NCBI GenBank assembly: GCA_015069195.1
Contig: SVJA01000007.1
Coordinates: 1-64,000, forward strand
Length of the DNA stretch: 64,000 bases
Source of the DNA: Oscillospiraceae bacterium
Lineage (GTDB): Bacteria; Bacillota; Clostridia; UBA1212
Direction: 5' to 3'
A program made the translations under genes and the position numbers. The notes beneath the pieces are model-generated. The model ran no database searches and was not told where the DNA came from. It saw nothing but the letters and a program-made list of their open reading frames with translations. Every line of letters begins with the position of its first letter. Position 1 is the stretch's first letter. Of this stretch, positions 26,208 through 34,026 are shown in pieces.

Positions 26208-26255
26208 ATGACAAACACGGAGTGAAAGCTATTACTTCCACTCCGTGTTTGTCAT
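26208..26255. repeat. 17-base-pair palindrome downstream of the cohesin gene
   Basis: Arms 26208-26224 and 26239-26255 (ATGACAAACACGGAGTG and its exact complement) surround a 14-base loop. Neither side has a U-run, so it is an atypical terminator at best; it starts 24 bases past the stop of the cohesin gene and could stabilise the transcript 3' end. Confidence 0.7.
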
Positions 26256-26278: not shown

Positions 26279-27928
26279 TCAAACCTTTTTCTTCTTTTTC
26301 AAGAAAATGAACACACCGGCTCCGCCTACAGCAAGAACAGCTACAACGCCTATGATTATACCTACAACAGGAGATGCGTTTTTGTTTTCATCCTTACCAT
26401 CTGAAGATTGATTAGTATTTGCTTCAGGAGTTTCACTCGGTTTACTGGTGCTATCTTCAGGGGAAACAGCATCTCCGGAATTGTCAGGAGTAACATCATT
26501 TGAAGGCTCCCCATCAACATCTGATGCTATTTTGCAAATTGCATACGTACCCAATTCAGACAAGTCAGCTGAAATAGTTTTTCCATCGTCACTAACTTTT
26601 GAATCTGTGACAGTCGCAACGCCATCTACAATCGAATACAATCTTACTTCTTTACCATAACCATCAGGAATATTAAAAATCGTTTCAACCCTTCCGTTTG
26701 GTGTAGCCGCACTTCCGTTTACAGTAGCAGAAATATTGTATATGGTAAAATCACTTGATACAGCACTCAATGATTTTTTAATATTTTCGTAGACAGAATT
26801 TGAAGAAGTCACACTCTCTATTTTCAATTCTGTACCTTCTGCAAAAACACCTTTTTCTGCATTGAAAACAGTACCTGTCGTTTCGTCTTTGGCTGTACAA
26901 GGAATCACTTGCTGTGTTTTTTCATTGCATACAGTACAAGTACCTTCCATAAGACCTTCCGAACTTATTGTCGGCTGAGTTACTATTGTCGGTTCACTGA
27001 ATTTGTGTCCTACAGCAGATATTGTTCTTCGTTCAGAGTGACTACAATCAGCACAAGCTCTTTCCTCTGTTCCGTTTTTAGTACATGTAGCTGTGGTTGA
27101 TACAACCCATGATTCATAACTGTGTCCGGTAGCATCTATACTTTGTGTTTCAATCTTACCGCATATTGTACAACTTCTACGTTGACTACCCTTACTTGTA
27201 CATGTAGGTTTCGTGGTAATAGACCATGCACCATATGTATGGTTAGTAGTTTTTGGAATAGTTTCATTTTTTGAAGTTCCGCATTTTGTACAAGTGTAAT
27301 GTTTGTTGCCATATTCTTTACAACTTGCATTTTGGGTAATATTACCTGTATTCCAAGTGTGATTAGTCTTTTCTACATATTGACATGCGCTGCAAGTACG
27401 TTCATGTTGAGTACTGTCAGTCTTCTTGTACGAACCATATGTATGTGTTTTACATTCTACTGTAACATTACTCGTATAGGAACCTTGAAAAGATAAAGGT
27501 TGGTAGTCAACATCATACGAATCAACCACTTGTAATTGTACAGAAGTCTTTCCGACAGGTGCATTCTCCTTTATTTTAAATGTATATGTTGCAATATCAC
27601 CTGTTTTAAAATTATTAACAGTTGTAGTACCATCAATCCAAGATATTGTGTACGGAGAACCATAACTGGTATTAAGCTGCGAACCAACTAATATACCATT
27701 ATCAGTAACCTTTGTAAGTTCCAAAACCGATGTGTCATAAGTTACTCTAACGGTCAATGTTACCAATCCGGGATTTGTTCTCAAATTCAAATTTACGTTG
27801 ACCGTACTACCTTGTTTTCCTGCTGCTTCAGTAAGATAAGCAAAAGCATAAGCTCCGGCTTTTACAGGCACAAAGTTCATTGTACAAACAAGTACAATTG
27901 TTAATATAAATAACAAAAATTTTTTCAT
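26279..27928 (-). CDS. membrane-anchored cohesin-domain surface protein
   Basis: The protein has 549 residues from the ATG at 27928 (AAAGGAGG seven bases upstream). A signal peptide is followed by a cohesin module of about 125 residues: GSTVNVNLNL, VRVTYDTSVLELTKV and GDIATYTFKIKENAPVGK are the typical strands. Next come about five Cys/His-rich repeats (CxxC pairs with GHxY/NHTY turns), each about 40 residues. Then there is a beta-rich domain, a Ser/Pro/Glu-rich spacer and a C-terminal helix (VVGIIIGVVAVLAVGGAGVF) with KKKKK tail. There is no LPXTG. It should display a cohesin at the cell surface. It follows the dockerin-LRR gene by 13 bases. Confidence 0.85.
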   Translation of the reverse strand: MKKFLLFILTIVLVCTMNFVPVKAGAYAFAYLTEAAGKQGSTVNVNLNLRTNPGLVTLTVRVTYDTSVLELTKVTDNGILVGSQLNTSYGSPYTISWIDGTTTVNNFKTGDIATYTFKIKENAPVGKTSVQLQVVDSYDVDYQPLSFQGSYTSNVTVECKTHTYGSYKKTDSTQHERTCSACQYVEKTNHTWNTGNITQNASCKEYGNKHYTCTKCGTSKNETIPKTTNHTYGAWSITTKPTCTSKGSQRRSCTICGKIETQSIDATGHSYESWVVSTTATCTKNGTEERACADCSHSERRTISAVGHKFSEPTIVTQPTISSEGLMEGTCTVCNEKTQQVIPCTAKDETTGTVFNAEKGVFAEGTELKIESVTSSNSVYENIKKSLSAVSSDFTIYNISATVNGSAATPNGRVETIFNIPDGYGKEVRLYSIVDGVATVTDSKVSDDGKTISADLSELGTYAICKIASDVDGEPSNDVTPDNSGDAVSPEDSTSKPSETPEANTNQSSDGKDENKNASPVVGIIIGVVAVLAVGGAGVFIFLKKKKKV

Positions 27929-27941
27929 AATATCCTCCTTT

Positions 27942-29870
27942 TTATCCAATAGTTACATTCCATCCATTCAAATATCTTGCCAATATAAGTCCGTCAAGTG
28001 AATTAACCTTTCCGTCTTTGTTTACATCCATAACTTCTGTGTTTGAAATCACAATATCCCAGCCATTCAAATATCTGAGCAGCAAAAGACCGTCAAGTGA
28101 ATTAATCTTGTCGTCACCATTAAGGTCTCCGCAATACTGCTTTATTAAGAATATAATATTTGCGTTCAGTAAAGGATCATTATATGACCCAATGCCAATT
28201 TTATTCCACTCACTCCCGGTTCCGTTAAAATAGACATCTTCAAGTGACAATGCCCCGCTAAAAGCCGTATAATAAATATTTTTCACACTACGCGGTATAG
28301 TTATCTGAGTAAGATAACTACAACCATCACAAAAACCAGCTAAGACAACATCTCCTCCAGTCAGCACAATCTCCTTTACCCCATTACGAGAAGCAGATAG
28401 ACCAAATAAATCCGAAATAGTTAAACAATATGGTAATGTTATTTTTTCGAGCTGTGTACAATCATAAAAAATTAAACTGCCAATACTTGTCACACTATTC
28501 GGTATAGATATACTCTTCAAGCTTGAACATTCACCGAATGCATAATAACCTATATTCGTCACACTATCAGGTATCGTTACACCGATCAAACCTTCACAAG
28601 CAGAAAATGCATATTCTTCAATGCGCGTCACCTTTTCAGGAACTTCAAAATACCCTTTTCTTCCAGAAGGAAAACACAGCAATATTGTACCAGTCTTATC
28701 GTACATTACCCCTTCGATATCTGAATATACCGAATTATTATCTGAAATGTATATATTTTCAAAGGATTCGCATCTCGGAAAAGCATAATCGACAATACTG
28801 GTTACACTACTTGGTATAACTATGCTTTTAAGCGCAGTACAATCAAAAAACGCACGACCTATTTCTGTTAGTCCTTCAACCAGCTCAACACTTTCAAGCG
28901 AGCTGCAACCGCTAAAAGCGCCACCACAAATCTGTGTTACATTTTTCGGAATTGAAATACTCTTAAGAGATGTGCAGTCATAAAACATATAATCAGAAAT
29001 GCTTGTGATTCCATTTCCCAAGGTAACTGTTTCTAGTGAACTACATCCCCTAAATGACGATTCATCTATTGTTGTCACACTATCAGGGATAGTGATACTC
29101 TTAAGCGATTTACAATAACTAAAAGCATATTCACCAATGTAAATTGTACCTTCAGGTATATAAACATATTCCAGGGACTCACAAAATTGAAAAGCTTCAT
29201 TTCCGATAGAATTGATACCTTCAGGTAATGTAATACTTTTTATATACTCGCAATTGGCAAAATACTCAGTCCCTATAGAGCTCCCACCTCCGATTGTTCC
29301 GGTTATTACCAATTCCTTTAAAGATTTTGGGAAAAACAATGTTGAATATTCGCTAAACAAATGGTTTGGAAAACAAGGTATAGTCAATTTTTCAATACTA
29401 TAACAATATTCAAACACACACTCTCCAACACTAGTCACACTGTTAGGAATCACCACACTTGTAAGCGACTTACACCCAGAAAAAGCTCTTTTCTCTATTG
29501 TCGTAACACTATTAGGTATTGTTATACTTTTAAGTGATTCGCAATTTTCAAATGCACGATATTCAATCTTAAGCACGCCGTCCGGAATTACAACACTCGT
29601 TAATGAATTACAACGACTAAATGCACTATACTGTATTTCTACAACAGGGTAACCACCTAATGATGAAGGTATCGTCACATCACCACTAATGCTAGTTTCG
29701 ACTTCTGTTATTCTAGCAACACCATTAAAAACTTTATATGTATAATACCCACTTGTTTCAGCATTTACCGGCATTTGCTTATTTGATTGAGTGTTTCCAA
29801 ACAACACAACACCAAAAATTATAACACCAACAAAAAGCACATTAATTAAAAACACTTTCTTACTTTTCAT
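27942..29870 (-). CDS. secreted BspA-type LRR protein with C-terminal type I dockerin
   Basis: The protein has 642 residues. A signal peptide (about 1-38) is followed by about 18 LRR_5/BspA-like repeats (CxSLxSIxIPxSVTxIxxxAF). A type I dockerin occupies about residues 580-642, with duplicated calcium-binding F-hand loops DLNGDDKINSLD and DVNKDGKVNSLD, each followed by a GLLLLRYLNGW-like helix. Dockerins bind cohesins, and the next gene encodes one, so this protein is probably tethered to the cell surface that way. There is no membrane anchor of its own. Its ATG overlaps the end of the DUF2971 gene by 11 bases; GGAGG is 15 bases upstream, unusually far. Confidence 0.88.
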   Translation of the reverse strand: MKSKKVFLINVLFVGVIIFGVVLFGNTQSNKQMPVNAETSGYYTYKVFNGVARITEVETSISGDVTIPSSLGGYPVVEIQYSAFSRCNSLTSVVIPDGVLKIEYRAFENCESLKSITIPNSVTTIEKRAFSGCKSLTSVVIPNSVTSVGECVFEYCYSIEKLTIPCFPNHLFSEYSTLFFPKSLKELVITGTIGGGSSIGTEYFANCEYIKSITLPEGINSIGNEAFQFCESLEYVYIPEGTIYIGEYAFSYCKSLKSITIPDSVTTIDESSFRGCSSLETVTLGNGITSISDYMFYDCTSLKSISIPKNVTQICGGAFSGCSSLESVELVEGLTEIGRAFFDCTALKSIVIPSSVTSIVDYAFPRCESFENIYISDNNSVYSDIEGVMYDKTGTILLCFPSGRKGYFEVPEKVTRIEEYAFSACEGLIGVTIPDSVTNIGYYAFGECSSLKSISIPNSVTSIGSLIFYDCTQLEKITLPYCLTISDLFGLSASRNGVKEIVLTGGDVVLAGFCDGCSYLTQITIPRSVKNIYYTAFSGALSLEDVYFNGTGSEWNKIGIGSYNDPLLNANIIFLIKQYCGDLNGDDKINSLDGLLLLRYLNGWDIVISNTEVMDVNKDGKVNSLDGLILARYLNGWNVTIG

Positions 29871-30801
29871 TTTTTCTTTTATTTTCCTCCTTATTTTTTT
29901 CGCATTTATAACACAATTTCATGCTGATATCTCCCGCATTTTCACTCAACATTGTACGGGAATTTCTGAGCATAAAATCATTTATATACTCGTATCTAGT
30001 AACCTCTAAAAAATTTTCTATCTCCGGAGCGAACATTATTTTCATAGCATCTATCTGTCTTTGGGATAGTTTCCACAAAACAGCATAGCATTTATCCGGA
30101 TTAATCTTATCGGCTAAATCACCTTTTAACTTGATCAACAAACGAGTTTCCTTTTCATAGTACCAAACCAAAGATTTGTTGAATCCATTGTGTTTATTTG
30201 CATACGTTTCAAATTCACTTTTTTTTATTTTTTCGTGATTTGTCATCGTGTTATATTTCAAGTCAACGCGCCAATTTGCATCAGATTCATCTTTCTTATC
30301 TCCCTTAGCGGTTAGTTTAGAATACAATACATCTCTGAAAGAAATATCTATATCGTCCTTGGGAGACAACAAAATTTCTTCACCCATAATTTTATTGTTA
30401 TCATAATCATACTCAGCCCAAAAGAAATCACCTTCCGAAATCATTTGAAAGAGCTTGTTTCGAGTAAAACCGATTCGTCCGCCTTTTCCATTCAAACCTG
30501 AATATAAATACCACAAAGAAAGATTTTCATTCTGACCGGAGCTAAAACAAATAGAATAGTATTTCTTCTGTTCTTTCTTATTATCCCCGAATTGTTTTTT
30601 ATCTTTCTCATCATTAAACCTATCCACAGAGGATATACGAAGAGTTTTTGTTCTTAAAATTTCATTTATTGCTTTTAATGAAGTATAGTGAAAAAAATAA
30701 CTGTGTCCGACAGTTCTATGTTCAAAATACTTTTCCAACTCATCAGAACTTCCCAACTGCGGAAAATAAATCCACTTGGTTTTATCAATTACTTCAGCCA
30801 A
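29860..30801 (-). CDS. DUF2971 domain protein
   Basis: The protein has 313 residues. The DUF2971 pattern is clear: FFHYTSLKAINEILRTKTL near the N-terminus, SSVDRFNDEKDKKQF, then ISICFS-like YSICFSSGQNENLSLWYLY. Residues after 220 are variable; the end is Lys/Glu-rich. The family has no firmly assigned reaction and is scattered in accessory regions and defence loci. The TTG at 30801 has AGGAG eight bases upstream; an in-frame ATG at 30834 lacks a site and is the alternative. The last 11 bases overlap the start of the dockerin-LRR gene, so it heads that operon. Confidence 0.75.
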   Translation of the reverse strand: MAEVIDKTKWIYFPQLGSSDELEKYFEHRTVGHSYFFHYTSLKAINEILRTKTLRISSVDRFNDEKDKKQFGDNKKEQKKYYSICFSSGQNENLSLWYLYSGLNGKGGRIGFTRNKLFQMISEGDFFWAEYDYDNNKIMGEEILLSPKDDIDISFRDVLYSKLTAKGDKKDESDANWRVDLKYNTMTNHEKIKKSEFETYANKHNGFNKSLVWYYEKETRLLIKLKGDLADKINPDKCYAVLWKLSQRQIDAMKIMFAPEIENFLEVTRYEYINDFMLRNSRTMLSENAGDISMKLCYKCEKNKEENKRKNEK

Positions 30802-30864
30802 TACATCATCTCCTAATAAAATCACAAGTAACATTTGTCATTTTACACCCACTCCACCTCAAAA

Positions 30865-31020: not shown

Positions 31021-31056
31021 TTTGTGGCAGTGATTCATTCTTACAGGAGTACTCAG

Positions 31057-31479
31057 ATGGGAAAAGATACATCAAAAATCGTAGAAGAACTCGGTATTTG
31101 TTCCGATTTCAACACATTCTACAATGAAAACAAAGATTATATGGTTTCTGACACGCTTTCAAGTTTGCTTGAAAAGTTACTTGCAGAAAAAGGTCTGAAA
31201 AAATCTCAGGTTATAAAAAACTCCGAACTTGCAGAAATTTATGCATACCAGATTTTCTCTGGTGTCAGAGTTCCAGAAAGAAAGAAGCTTCTTTCACTAG
31301 CAGTCGGTATGTCACTTAAGCTCGACGAAGTCCAGCTTTTGCTCAAATGTGCCGGTTATTCTCAGCTCTATATAAAATTGCCCTTCGACAGTATCATTAT
31401 CTACGGTATATGCAAGAAACTTTCGGTTATGGAAATTAACAACCTTTTATATGACTACGAACTTGAAACTTTGGGATAA
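31057..31479 (+). CDS. XRE-like small regulator, copy 1
   Basis: The protein has 140 residues from the ATG at 31057 (AGGAG seven bases upstream); an upstream in-frame codon at 31024 has no site. Residues about 36-100 resemble an XRE/Cro helix-turn-helix: LLEKLLAEKGLKKSQVI, then SGVRVPERKKLLSLAV in place of the xGxxxPxxxxLxxLA segment. The C-terminal 35 residues form a helical extension. It is about 80 percent identical by hand count to the 140-residue product at 31704, hence a tandem duplicate. It has its own terminator (31524-31556). Confidence 0.7.
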   Translation: MGKDTSKIVEELGICSDFNTFYNENKDYMVSDTLSSLLEKLLAEKGLKKSQVIKNSELAEIYAYQIFSGVRVPERKKLLSLAVGMSLKLDEVQLLLKCAGYSQLYIKLPFDSIIIYGICKKLSVMEINNLLYDYELETLG

Positions 31480-31674: not shown

Positions 31675-31703
31675 GACTGCATACAGTGAGAGGATGCACT
31701 GTA

Positions 31704-32126
31704 TTGAAAAAAGACACTGTTAAGATTATTGAAGAACTCGGTATCTGCCCTGATTTCAACACATTCTATAACGAAAACAAAGATTATATGATTTCGGAAA
31801 CACTTTCGACTATGCTTGAAAAGTTGCTTTCAGAAAAAGGTTTGAAAAAATCGCAGGTTATAAAGAAATCTGAACTTGCAGAAATCTATGCATATCAGAT
31901 ATTCTCCGGAGTGAGAATTCCCGAGAGGAAAAAATTACTTTCACTTGCAGTGGCTATGGAGCTGGATCTTGATGAAGTCCAGACACTACTCAAATGTTCC
32001 GGGTATTCTCCGCTCTATGCAAAACGTCCTTTTGACAGTATCACAATTTACGGAATTTACAACAAGTTATCCGTGATAGAAATTAACAATATTTTGTACA
32101 ACTACAAACTTGAAACTTTGGGGTAA
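31704..32126 (+). CDS. XRE-like small regulator, copy 2
   Basis: The protein has 140 residues if it starts at the TTG at 31704, which makes it exactly as long as copy 1 and aligns them end to end. AGAGG lies about 10 bases upstream. A GTG at 31686 is the alternative. The helix-turn-helix-like region LEKLLSEKGLKKSQVIKK and the SGVRIPERKKLLSLAV segment are conserved with copy 1. Differences concentrate in the C-terminal half. Its stop is six bases before the zinc-ribbon/DUF6273 gene, and a kinase gene follows, so it likely regulates or partners that cassette. Confidence 0.7.
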   Translation: MKKDTVKIIEELGICPDFNTFYNENKDYMISETLSTMLEKLLSEKGLKKSQVIKKSELAEIYAYQIFSGVRIPERKKLLSLAVAMELDLDEVQTLLKCSGYSPLYAKRPFDSITIYGIYNKLSVIEINNILYNYKLETLG

Positions 32127-33324: not shown

Positions 33325-34026
33325 ATGAATTATGAAAACTTCATCGAAAATCTAAAAAAAATGTATGACATTGTCGGAGTTCTTGCTGATAAAAACGACT
33401 GCAAGACTCTCCGTTTACGCCACAAAAAGATCGAAAAAGATCTTGTTCTCCACCGTTTGCCTAAAAACATTGCAGCGTACGAATCATTATCTAAAATAGA
33501 GTGTGAAAATCTCCCTGTTATTTATGATGTTATTGATCTTGACGATTTCCGGATAGTTTTAGAAGAATTCATTTCAGGCATCACGGTCGCAGATGTTATG
33601 GAAACCGGCAGATATACATATCACGGAGCAAAAAAAGTCATACAAGGAGTTTGCAATGCACTATCTGTACTCCACTCACGAAACATAGTCCACCGTGATA
33701 TAAAACCGGAAAACATAATGGTTGACAGCAGCGGCAGAGTCGTTTTAATCGATTTTAATGCTTCCAGAACAATAACGCCTGACAGCAAAGATACAGTTGT
33801 CATGGGAACTGTAGGATATGCTTCTCCGGAACAAATAGGTATTGCCCAAAGCGATTCCCGAACAGATATTTACGCTATCGGAGTTCTTCTGAATGTTATG
33901 ATGACAGGCAAGCATCCAAGCGAACTTATTGCAAAAGGTAAAGCCGGTCGTATTGTCAGAAAATGCACTAATGTAAATCCAAATGACAGATATCAAACGG
34001 TAGAAAAACTGAGCGGCGCCCTGTAG
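33325..34026 (+). CDS. small Ser/Thr protein kinase domain protein
   Basis: The protein has 233 residues and consists only of a kinase fold. The catalytic loop HRDIKPEN is at 123-130 and the metal-binding motif DFN (in place of DFG) is at 143-145. The activation-segment end GYASPEQ and the helix F aspartate in SDSRTDIYAIGV are present. The glycine-rich loop and the AxK lysine of the N-lobe are not evident; DLVLHRLP occupies the expected strand 3 position. There is no transmembrane segment. It is last in the cassette, and its final codons form the left arm of the terminator. Catalytic activity is plausible but uncertain. Confidence 0.85.
   Translation: MNYENFIENLKKMYDIVGVLADKNDCKTLRLRHKKIEKDLVLHRLPKNIAAYESLSKIECENLPVIYDVIDLDDFRIVLEEFISGITVADVMETGRYTYHGAKKVIQGVCNALSVLHSRNIVHRDIKPENIMVDSSGRVVLIDFNASRTITPDSKDTVVMGTVGYASPEQIGIAQSDSRTDIYAIGVLLNVMMTGKHPSELIAKGKAGRIVRKCTNVNPNDRYQTVEKLSGAL

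Follow-up and report, generated by a model that had tools for sequence, protein, structure and literature searches.

An adjacent gene pair for a leucine-rich repeat dockerin protein and a membrane-anchored cohesin protein as a probable surface-display cassette in an Oscillospiraceae genome

Surface-anchored type I cohesins such as OlpA and OlpC of Clostridium thermocellum hold single dockerin proteins at the cell, and are themselves fixed there by S-layer domains. A non-cellulosomal pair with consecutive accessions, AfuCoh76 and AfuDoc75 of Archaeoglobus fulgidus (O30294 and O30295), binds strongly and specifically (PMC9705933). The accessible text of PMC11557425 describes anchoring scaffoldins that lack S-layer homology (SLH) domains and have one cohesin and a C-terminal transmembrane helix, for instance in the presumed non-cellulolytic Lachnoclostridium sp. 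MSJ-17, and calls it unclear what similar anchors in H. luporum and C. cibarium bind. In Ruminococcus flavefaciens FD-1, 28 leucine-rich repeat (LRR) entries stand in the table of dockerin proteins, as far as the accessible part of PMC2930009 goes. The Limousia mucinolysome of gut Clostridia is described, in the accessible part of PMC12997984, as a set of scaffoldin complexes that carry multiple enzymes for degrading mucin and include a scaffoldin anchored by sortase. Here we analyse two adjacent genes in a stretch of 64,000 nucleotides (nt) from an Oscillospiraceae bacterium (contig SVJA01000007.1, positions 1 to 64,000; hereafter the window). The upstream gene encodes an LRR protein that ends in a dockerin (the cargo), and the downstream gene a membrane protein that begins with a cohesin (the anchor).

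We think it likely that the two genes form a cassette of cargo plus anchor: calcium-dependent cohesin-dockerin binding would put a BspA-type LRR protein on display at the cell membrane. This reading is built on the domains, the signal and anchor sequences, the gene order, and the way in which cohesin and dockerin types vary together from pair to pair. In the mechanism we propose, the LRR protein would be exported, and the next cistron would supply a membrane-anchored protein with the cohesin as its outward module. The C-terminal dockerin of the LRR protein would then plug into this cohesin with calcium, so that a stalk of Cys/His-rich repeats would carry the LRR domain outside the membrane.

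An earlier reading of this DNA from its sequence only had described the LRR protein as secreted and ending in a canonical two-loop type I dockerin, and we found both the signal sequence and the dockerin. The latter was recognised by PF00404 (E 2.6e-14) and is the best-scoring dockerin of the genome. Its matches among solved dockerins were clear (2yik, E 4e-9; 2mte, E 1.5e-8), with an alignment to the CelS dockerin over 55 residues (E 1.5e-8). Both calcium loops are complete (DLNGDDKINSLD and DVNKDGKVNSLD, read from the sequence), with the ligand positions 1, 3, 5, 9, and 12 and the subsequent helices that define type I dockerins; the model placed the expected helices at residues 591-601 and 624-633, with moderate confidence. 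A dual binding mode is known for type I dockerins (PMC12484212), and because the two halves are nearly identical, either of them could probably face the cohesin. The LRR region was assigned to PF13306 (LRR_5) with an E value of 4.6e-106. The best fold matches of its model were solved BspA-type LRR surface proteins (4fs7, 4gt6, and 4h09), which come from the gut bacteria Bacteroides ovatus, Faecalibacterium prausnitzii, and Eubacterium ventriosum. The cargo has the LRR_5 repeats in a secreted protein that characterise this group, and its LRR domain may be adhesive.

The next gene had been read as encoding a transmembrane-anchored protein with a cohesin as its first module, and this was borne out. 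PF00963 accepted the cohesin (E 1.4e-10) with 41.9 bits, compared with a curated cut-off of 24.1; by sequence alone the module was too divergent for a clean match in the PDB (best 3kcp, E 0.0044). We modelled the anchor with AlphaFold, using 19 aligned sequences, and searched the model against the PDB with Foldseek. The cohesin region, modelled with a predicted local distance difference test (pLDDT) score of about 93-98, has the β-sandwich of the cohesin fold. Several solved type I cohesins were matched with a template modelling (TM) score of about 0.8, some of them from complexes with dockerins, such as 6kgd (TM 0.81 at 2.0 Å) and 3ul4 (TM 0.82). For 2xdh, the non-cellulosomal cohesin of Archaeoglobus, the score was 0.75. 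The anchor has no LPXTG motif, the corresponding profile scoring weakly and below its cut-off, and no SLH domain was matched in the genome. With a cohesin, a C-terminal transmembrane helix, and a lysine tail (KKKKK), it has the features by which the accessible text of PMC11557425 defines non-SLH anchoring scaffoldins, at least one cohesin and an element other than SLH that anchors to the cell wall or membrane.

Between the cohesin and the membrane helix we also recovered the Cys/His-rich repeats, about five in number, that had been noticed from the sequence. They were modelled as hairpin repeats (pLDDT about 70-90) and matched no Pfam or NCBIfam family at significance; a weak match was found to residues 918-980 of the solved IgA protease chain 9qa6 (E 0.0014). 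Judging from the C-x9-C-x2-C-His spacing and the hairpin model, our guess is that they may bind zinc, form a rigid stalk, or both. Such repeats are widespread among surface proteins of the class.

The two genes lie on the same strand, with the cargo gene upstream, and the distance of 13 bases given previously is exact: the junction reads GGATAA AAAGGAGGATATT ATG, with a perfect ribosome site between the TAA and the ATG. We took the ATG at 27928 as the start of the anchor gene because of the position of the Shine-Dalgarno sequence; the TTG at 27949, where the listed open reading frame (ORF) begins, is a less likely start. The start of the cargo gene is backed by AAGGAGG 15 nt upstream, as read from the sequence.

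Further evidence for the cassette was obtained from the recurrence of its layout. Dockerin and cohesin profiles were built from 31 genomes of the order and run against the neighbourhoods of the cohesin matches in them; a dockerin ORF counted as adjacent if it ended at most 250 nt upstream of a cohesin ORF on the same strand. These statistics concern a single order and mostly draft metagenome assemblies, and the adjacency counts leave out one genome, G008, which is very rich in both modules. A dockerin ORF lay immediately upstream of 20 of the 51 cohesin ORFs and directly downstream of 3 more, most gaps being no longer than a few tens of nt and some genes overlapping. We estimate that chance alone would put about 0.3 of 51 there upstream. 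Dockerin genes make up a few per cent of all genes at most; we estimated 0.2-2%, and with some four per genome in the family when G008 is left aside, a share well under 1% is probable. Even at 2%, the binomial chance of at least 20 of 51 is 4e-21. Most of the complete partner anchors have a C-terminal transmembrane helix with a basic tail, and none has LPXTG. The dockerin-then-cohesin layout is thus general in the order and, together with the joint change of dockerin and cohesin types described below, suggests that these bacteria share a means of fixing particular proteins to the surface. The layout is not restricted to the order: in a wider sample of the class, it was also seen at a few of the best-scoring loci, namely L182 and L184 and, with more space between the genes, L191. 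In that sample, cohesins were found in 124 of 291 genomes, far above what the handful of known cellulosome makers would suggest.

When named genomes were scanned with the whole anchor, no relative was found, while a scan with cohesins only gave 9 loci. An LRR-dockerin protein adjoining a cohesin recurs in genomes G021 and G013, which belong to two other families. In G021 (L089), the LRR-dockerin is followed by a second dockerin protein and then by a two-cohesin protein with the same Cys/His repeats; in G013 (L134), it is followed by a protein with three cohesins and a dockerin. The architecture closest to that of the window anchor was found in Oscillospiraceae bacterium SIG476 (L195), where the gene for a protein with a cohesin and a dockerin is followed by an overlapping gene for an anchor with a cohesin, many of the same Cys/His repeats, a transmembrane helix, and a lysine tail. 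In G008, from the family of the window genome, 27 matches to cohesins and 48 to dockerins were counted; many are of the same type, and some are joined to esterase or glycosidase domains. Many secreted proteins of this genome (L136-L149) carry a cohesin followed directly by a dockerin in one chain, and several of these are joined to esterase, GDSL lipase, or phosphodiester glycosidase domains. Chains could therefore form there without a separate scaffoldin. A comparable set is described for Paenibacillus guangzhouensis in the accessible text of PMC11557425.

The main, though indirect, evidence that neighbouring cohesins and dockerins may be partners is the co-variation of their types. Over 23 adjacent pairs, cohesin and dockerin distances were correlated with a Mantel r of 0.64, or of 0.54 once taxonomic rank had been regressed out; 5000 permutations gave no value as high in either case. 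Ranked by cohesin or by dockerin distance, the same six pairs come out nearest to the window. Dockerins with RYLAxW or QYLAxW pair with cohesins of the NPG...PY..W kind (the window, G008, G021, G027:C38, G016, and G019), those with GIADFAKLRQxLL with a second cohesin kind (six genomes of family f2), and those with ITDxIxIKAHIL-like motifs with a third (G002, G011, G012, G014, and G022). G002 belongs to the family of the window genome and has other types, and part of f2 has the window type; thus, type does not simply follow taxonomy. The window dockerin is also nearer to the YLAxW dockerins of systems with the same cohesin type than to the compared dockerins of its own genome.

The window genome, 2.0 Mb in 23 contigs and 96% complete, comes from an uncultured member of the Clostridia, most likely of gut origin. 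A search for further dockerin proteins, which the sequence-only reading had proposed, gave at least 13 Dockerin_1 ORFs in all, as well as 4 Pfam cohesin ORFs and a fifth, divergent cohesin-like anchor. The description of the pair as self-contained, with no cellulase or scaffoldin nearby, was thus right for the window and too narrow for the genome, which also has a second locus of the same layout. The other cargoes include tyrosine phosphatase, transglutaminase-like, C39-like peptidase, SH3, and cadherin-like proteins, and several proteins have no recognised domain beyond the dockerin. A cellulosome would be expected to have dockerin-borne cellulases, but none of the 13 proteins contains a Pfam cellulase domain. 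The other dockerins mostly have a different signature, with IADA in the first half and NILDVMxxLNxI at the end. In the second locus (L019:7434-11343), the dockerin gene C18:95027-95197, whose cargo is SH3-cadherin-like, is followed within about 20 nt by the gene for a 525-residue membrane protein homologous to the anchor of a pair in G002 (31% over 318 residues). The N-terminus of this protein holds a divergent cohesin-like region (hhalign 95% over only 45 columns), which is under the Pfam cut-off and was detected solely by homology to the anchors of G002 and G010. Two further cohesin genes at a contig end, 63-67% identical to genes of G001 that are preceded by a dockerin gene, likely represent a third locus of this kind. 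Each of the 4 Pfam cohesin ORFs has one Pfam cohesin match; one ORF is truncated where its contig stops, and the G001 relative of that ORF carries two cohesins.

With these other dockerins in the genome, the anchor could be a general docking site, of which the LRR neighbour would be merely one client. The cargoes named above (tyrosine phosphatase, transglutaminase-like, SH3-domain, and C39-like peptidase) speak for this, and so does the fact that cellulosome cohesins are often promiscuous within one species. We nevertheless hold it to be unlikely, since most of the other dockerins are of the IADA/NILDVM type, at least one has its own adjacent anchor, and type matching accompanies adjacency. 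A remnant or outpost of a cellulosome-like system with scaffoldins elsewhere is very unlikely: the wealth of modules in G008 would fit it, but the dockerin proteins of the window genome lack Pfam cellulases, none of its Pfam cohesin ORFs (one being cut) has more than one match, and the cassette layout is found in many genomes with few cohesins. It would be most surprising if the cohesin were a structural β-sandwich only, binding no dockerin and lying next to one incidentally. Cohesin-like folds do occur in non-cellulosomal glycosidases of Clostridium perfringens (2jh2, 2vo8, and 2w1n), but the adjacency is far above chance and both modules co-vary.

Some observations weigh against the cassette of cargo and anchor. 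No relative that was found shares more than 41% identity with the anchor cohesin. When only cross-genus comparisons were used, r fell to 0.33, indicating that the co-variation is partly phylogenetic. Some of the other dockerins of the genome are perhaps accepted by the window anchor. Finally, two sortases and two LPXTG proteins show that other display routes exist, so that cohesin anchoring would be an additional route and no replacement. A lack of sortase as the reason for cohesin-dockerin display was rejected, because two are present here and at least one in 30 of the 31 genomes of the order. The surface display put forward by the sequence-only reading is still the best-supported interpretation, owing to the conserved synteny and the co-variation of types, though not for a lone pair. 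We regard as evenly balanced the broader proposal of an order-wide scheme, in which several exported cargoes, each with its own dockerin and adjacent cohesin anchor, would form several mutually exclusive pairs per cell; the cargo would comprise LRR, metallophosphatase-like, and putative glucosaminidase-like proteins. The coordinates of the window pair are collected in Table 1.

Table 1. Features of the cargo and anchor genes in the window
Feature	Position	Strand	Remarks and basis
LRR-dockerin cargo gene	27942-29870, including stop 27942-27944	-	642 residues; ORF, LRR_5 and Dockerin_1 profiles
Cargo signal sequence, about residues 1-38	29757-29870	-	Hydrophobic N-terminus; predicted helix 4-23
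BspA-type leucine-rich repeat region	28191-29750	-	PF13306; predicted strands about every 23 residues
Two-loop type I dockerin	27945-28136	-	PF00404; near-symmetric halves KINSLDGLLLLRYLNGW and KVNSLDGLILARYLNGW
Intergenic stretch, 13 nt, AAAGGAGGATATT	27929-27941	-	Shine-Dalgarno AGGAGG at 27934-27939; direct reading
Cohesin anchor gene	26279-27928	-	549 residues counted from ATG; ORF and Shine-Dalgarno position
Anchor signal sequence, about residues 1-27	27848-27928	-	Hydrophobic N-terminus; predicted helix 2-16
Cohesin module	27503-27859	-	PF00963; nine-strand-type model matching solved cohesins
About five Cys/His-rich repeats, C-x9-C-x2-C then His	26927-27454	-	Sequence pattern; 5 CxxC motifs
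Second β-rich region of the anchor	26531-26896	-	Low-confidence strands 396-466; matches in relatives
C-terminal transmembrane helix, then KKKKKV	26300-26356	-	Hydropathy 2.75 over 19 residues

Directly after the anchor gene lies a near-perfect hairpin (26210-26253, arms GACAAACACGGAGTG) with no T run, which may mark the end of the transcript. On the other side, a gene for a DUF2971 protein (29860-30834, - strand) shares 11 nt with the beginning of the LRR gene, and the two are probably transcribed together. This protein, of cytoplasmic type, precedes a secreted pair; it shows a weak, sub-threshold likeness to a HYD1-type ADP-ribosyltransferase signature. Beyond it, two small adjoining genes on the + strand (31024-31479 and 31686-32126), with no significant Pfam family, encode products that are 80% identical, which indicates a recent tandem duplication. 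A zinc-ribbon DUF6273 membrane protein is encoded ahead of the gene for a short Ser/Thr kinase (33325-34026, + strand). Kinase models from a defence library (PD-T4-6) recognise this kinase, but the likeness is one of kinases in general and is therefore no evidence of defence. A mobile-element or phage origin was set aside, as the cohesin had no match in viral contigs when searched with one pattern only.

If the cassette reading is correct, cohesin-dockerin binding in these Clostridia would be largely a surface-display device and less a cellulose machine, offering a non-covalent alternative to sortase anchoring where LPXTG proteins are few. The specificity of cohesins and dockerins is otherwise difficult to foresee; adjacent gene pairs would then list cognate partners directly and would also supply orthogonal pairs for protein engineering. 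The sequence-only reading had called this an uncommon use of the module, a view that did not survive, as the layout is general in the order. In addition, LRR-dockerins, single-cohesin transmembrane anchors, a non-cellulosomal binding pair, and non-cellulose gut complexes are each already known separately, according to the accessible parts of the sources. Our search of the open-licence literature turned up no account of cargo-then-anchor cassettes as a unit that recurs and co-varies.

The structures of OlpA and OlpC (3ul4 and 4dh2) are close fold matches of the window cohesin, but these two proteins, unlike the window pair, belong to a cellulosome-producing organism. As in the window, the cohesin and dockerin of AfuCoh76/AfuDoc75 are non-cellulosomal and reside on two proteins, which in this case are archaeal. 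To our knowledge, that pair has neither an LRR cargo nor Cys/His repeats. The window cargo resembles the proteins of R. flavefaciens FD-1 in that an LRR region is joined to a dockerin; those proteins, however, belong to a large cellulosome with many scaffoldins, and the accessible part of PMC2930009 describes no dedicated adjacent anchor for them. With the mucinolysome the pair shares a cohesin-dockerin assembly in Clostridia that would serve a purpose other than cellulose, while no two-gene cassette is described in the accessible part of PMC12997984. The anchors of the MSJ-17 type come close in having a single cohesin and a C-terminal membrane helix; no adjacent partner gene is reported for them in the accessible text, whereas the likely partner of the window anchor is the product of the gene directly upstream.

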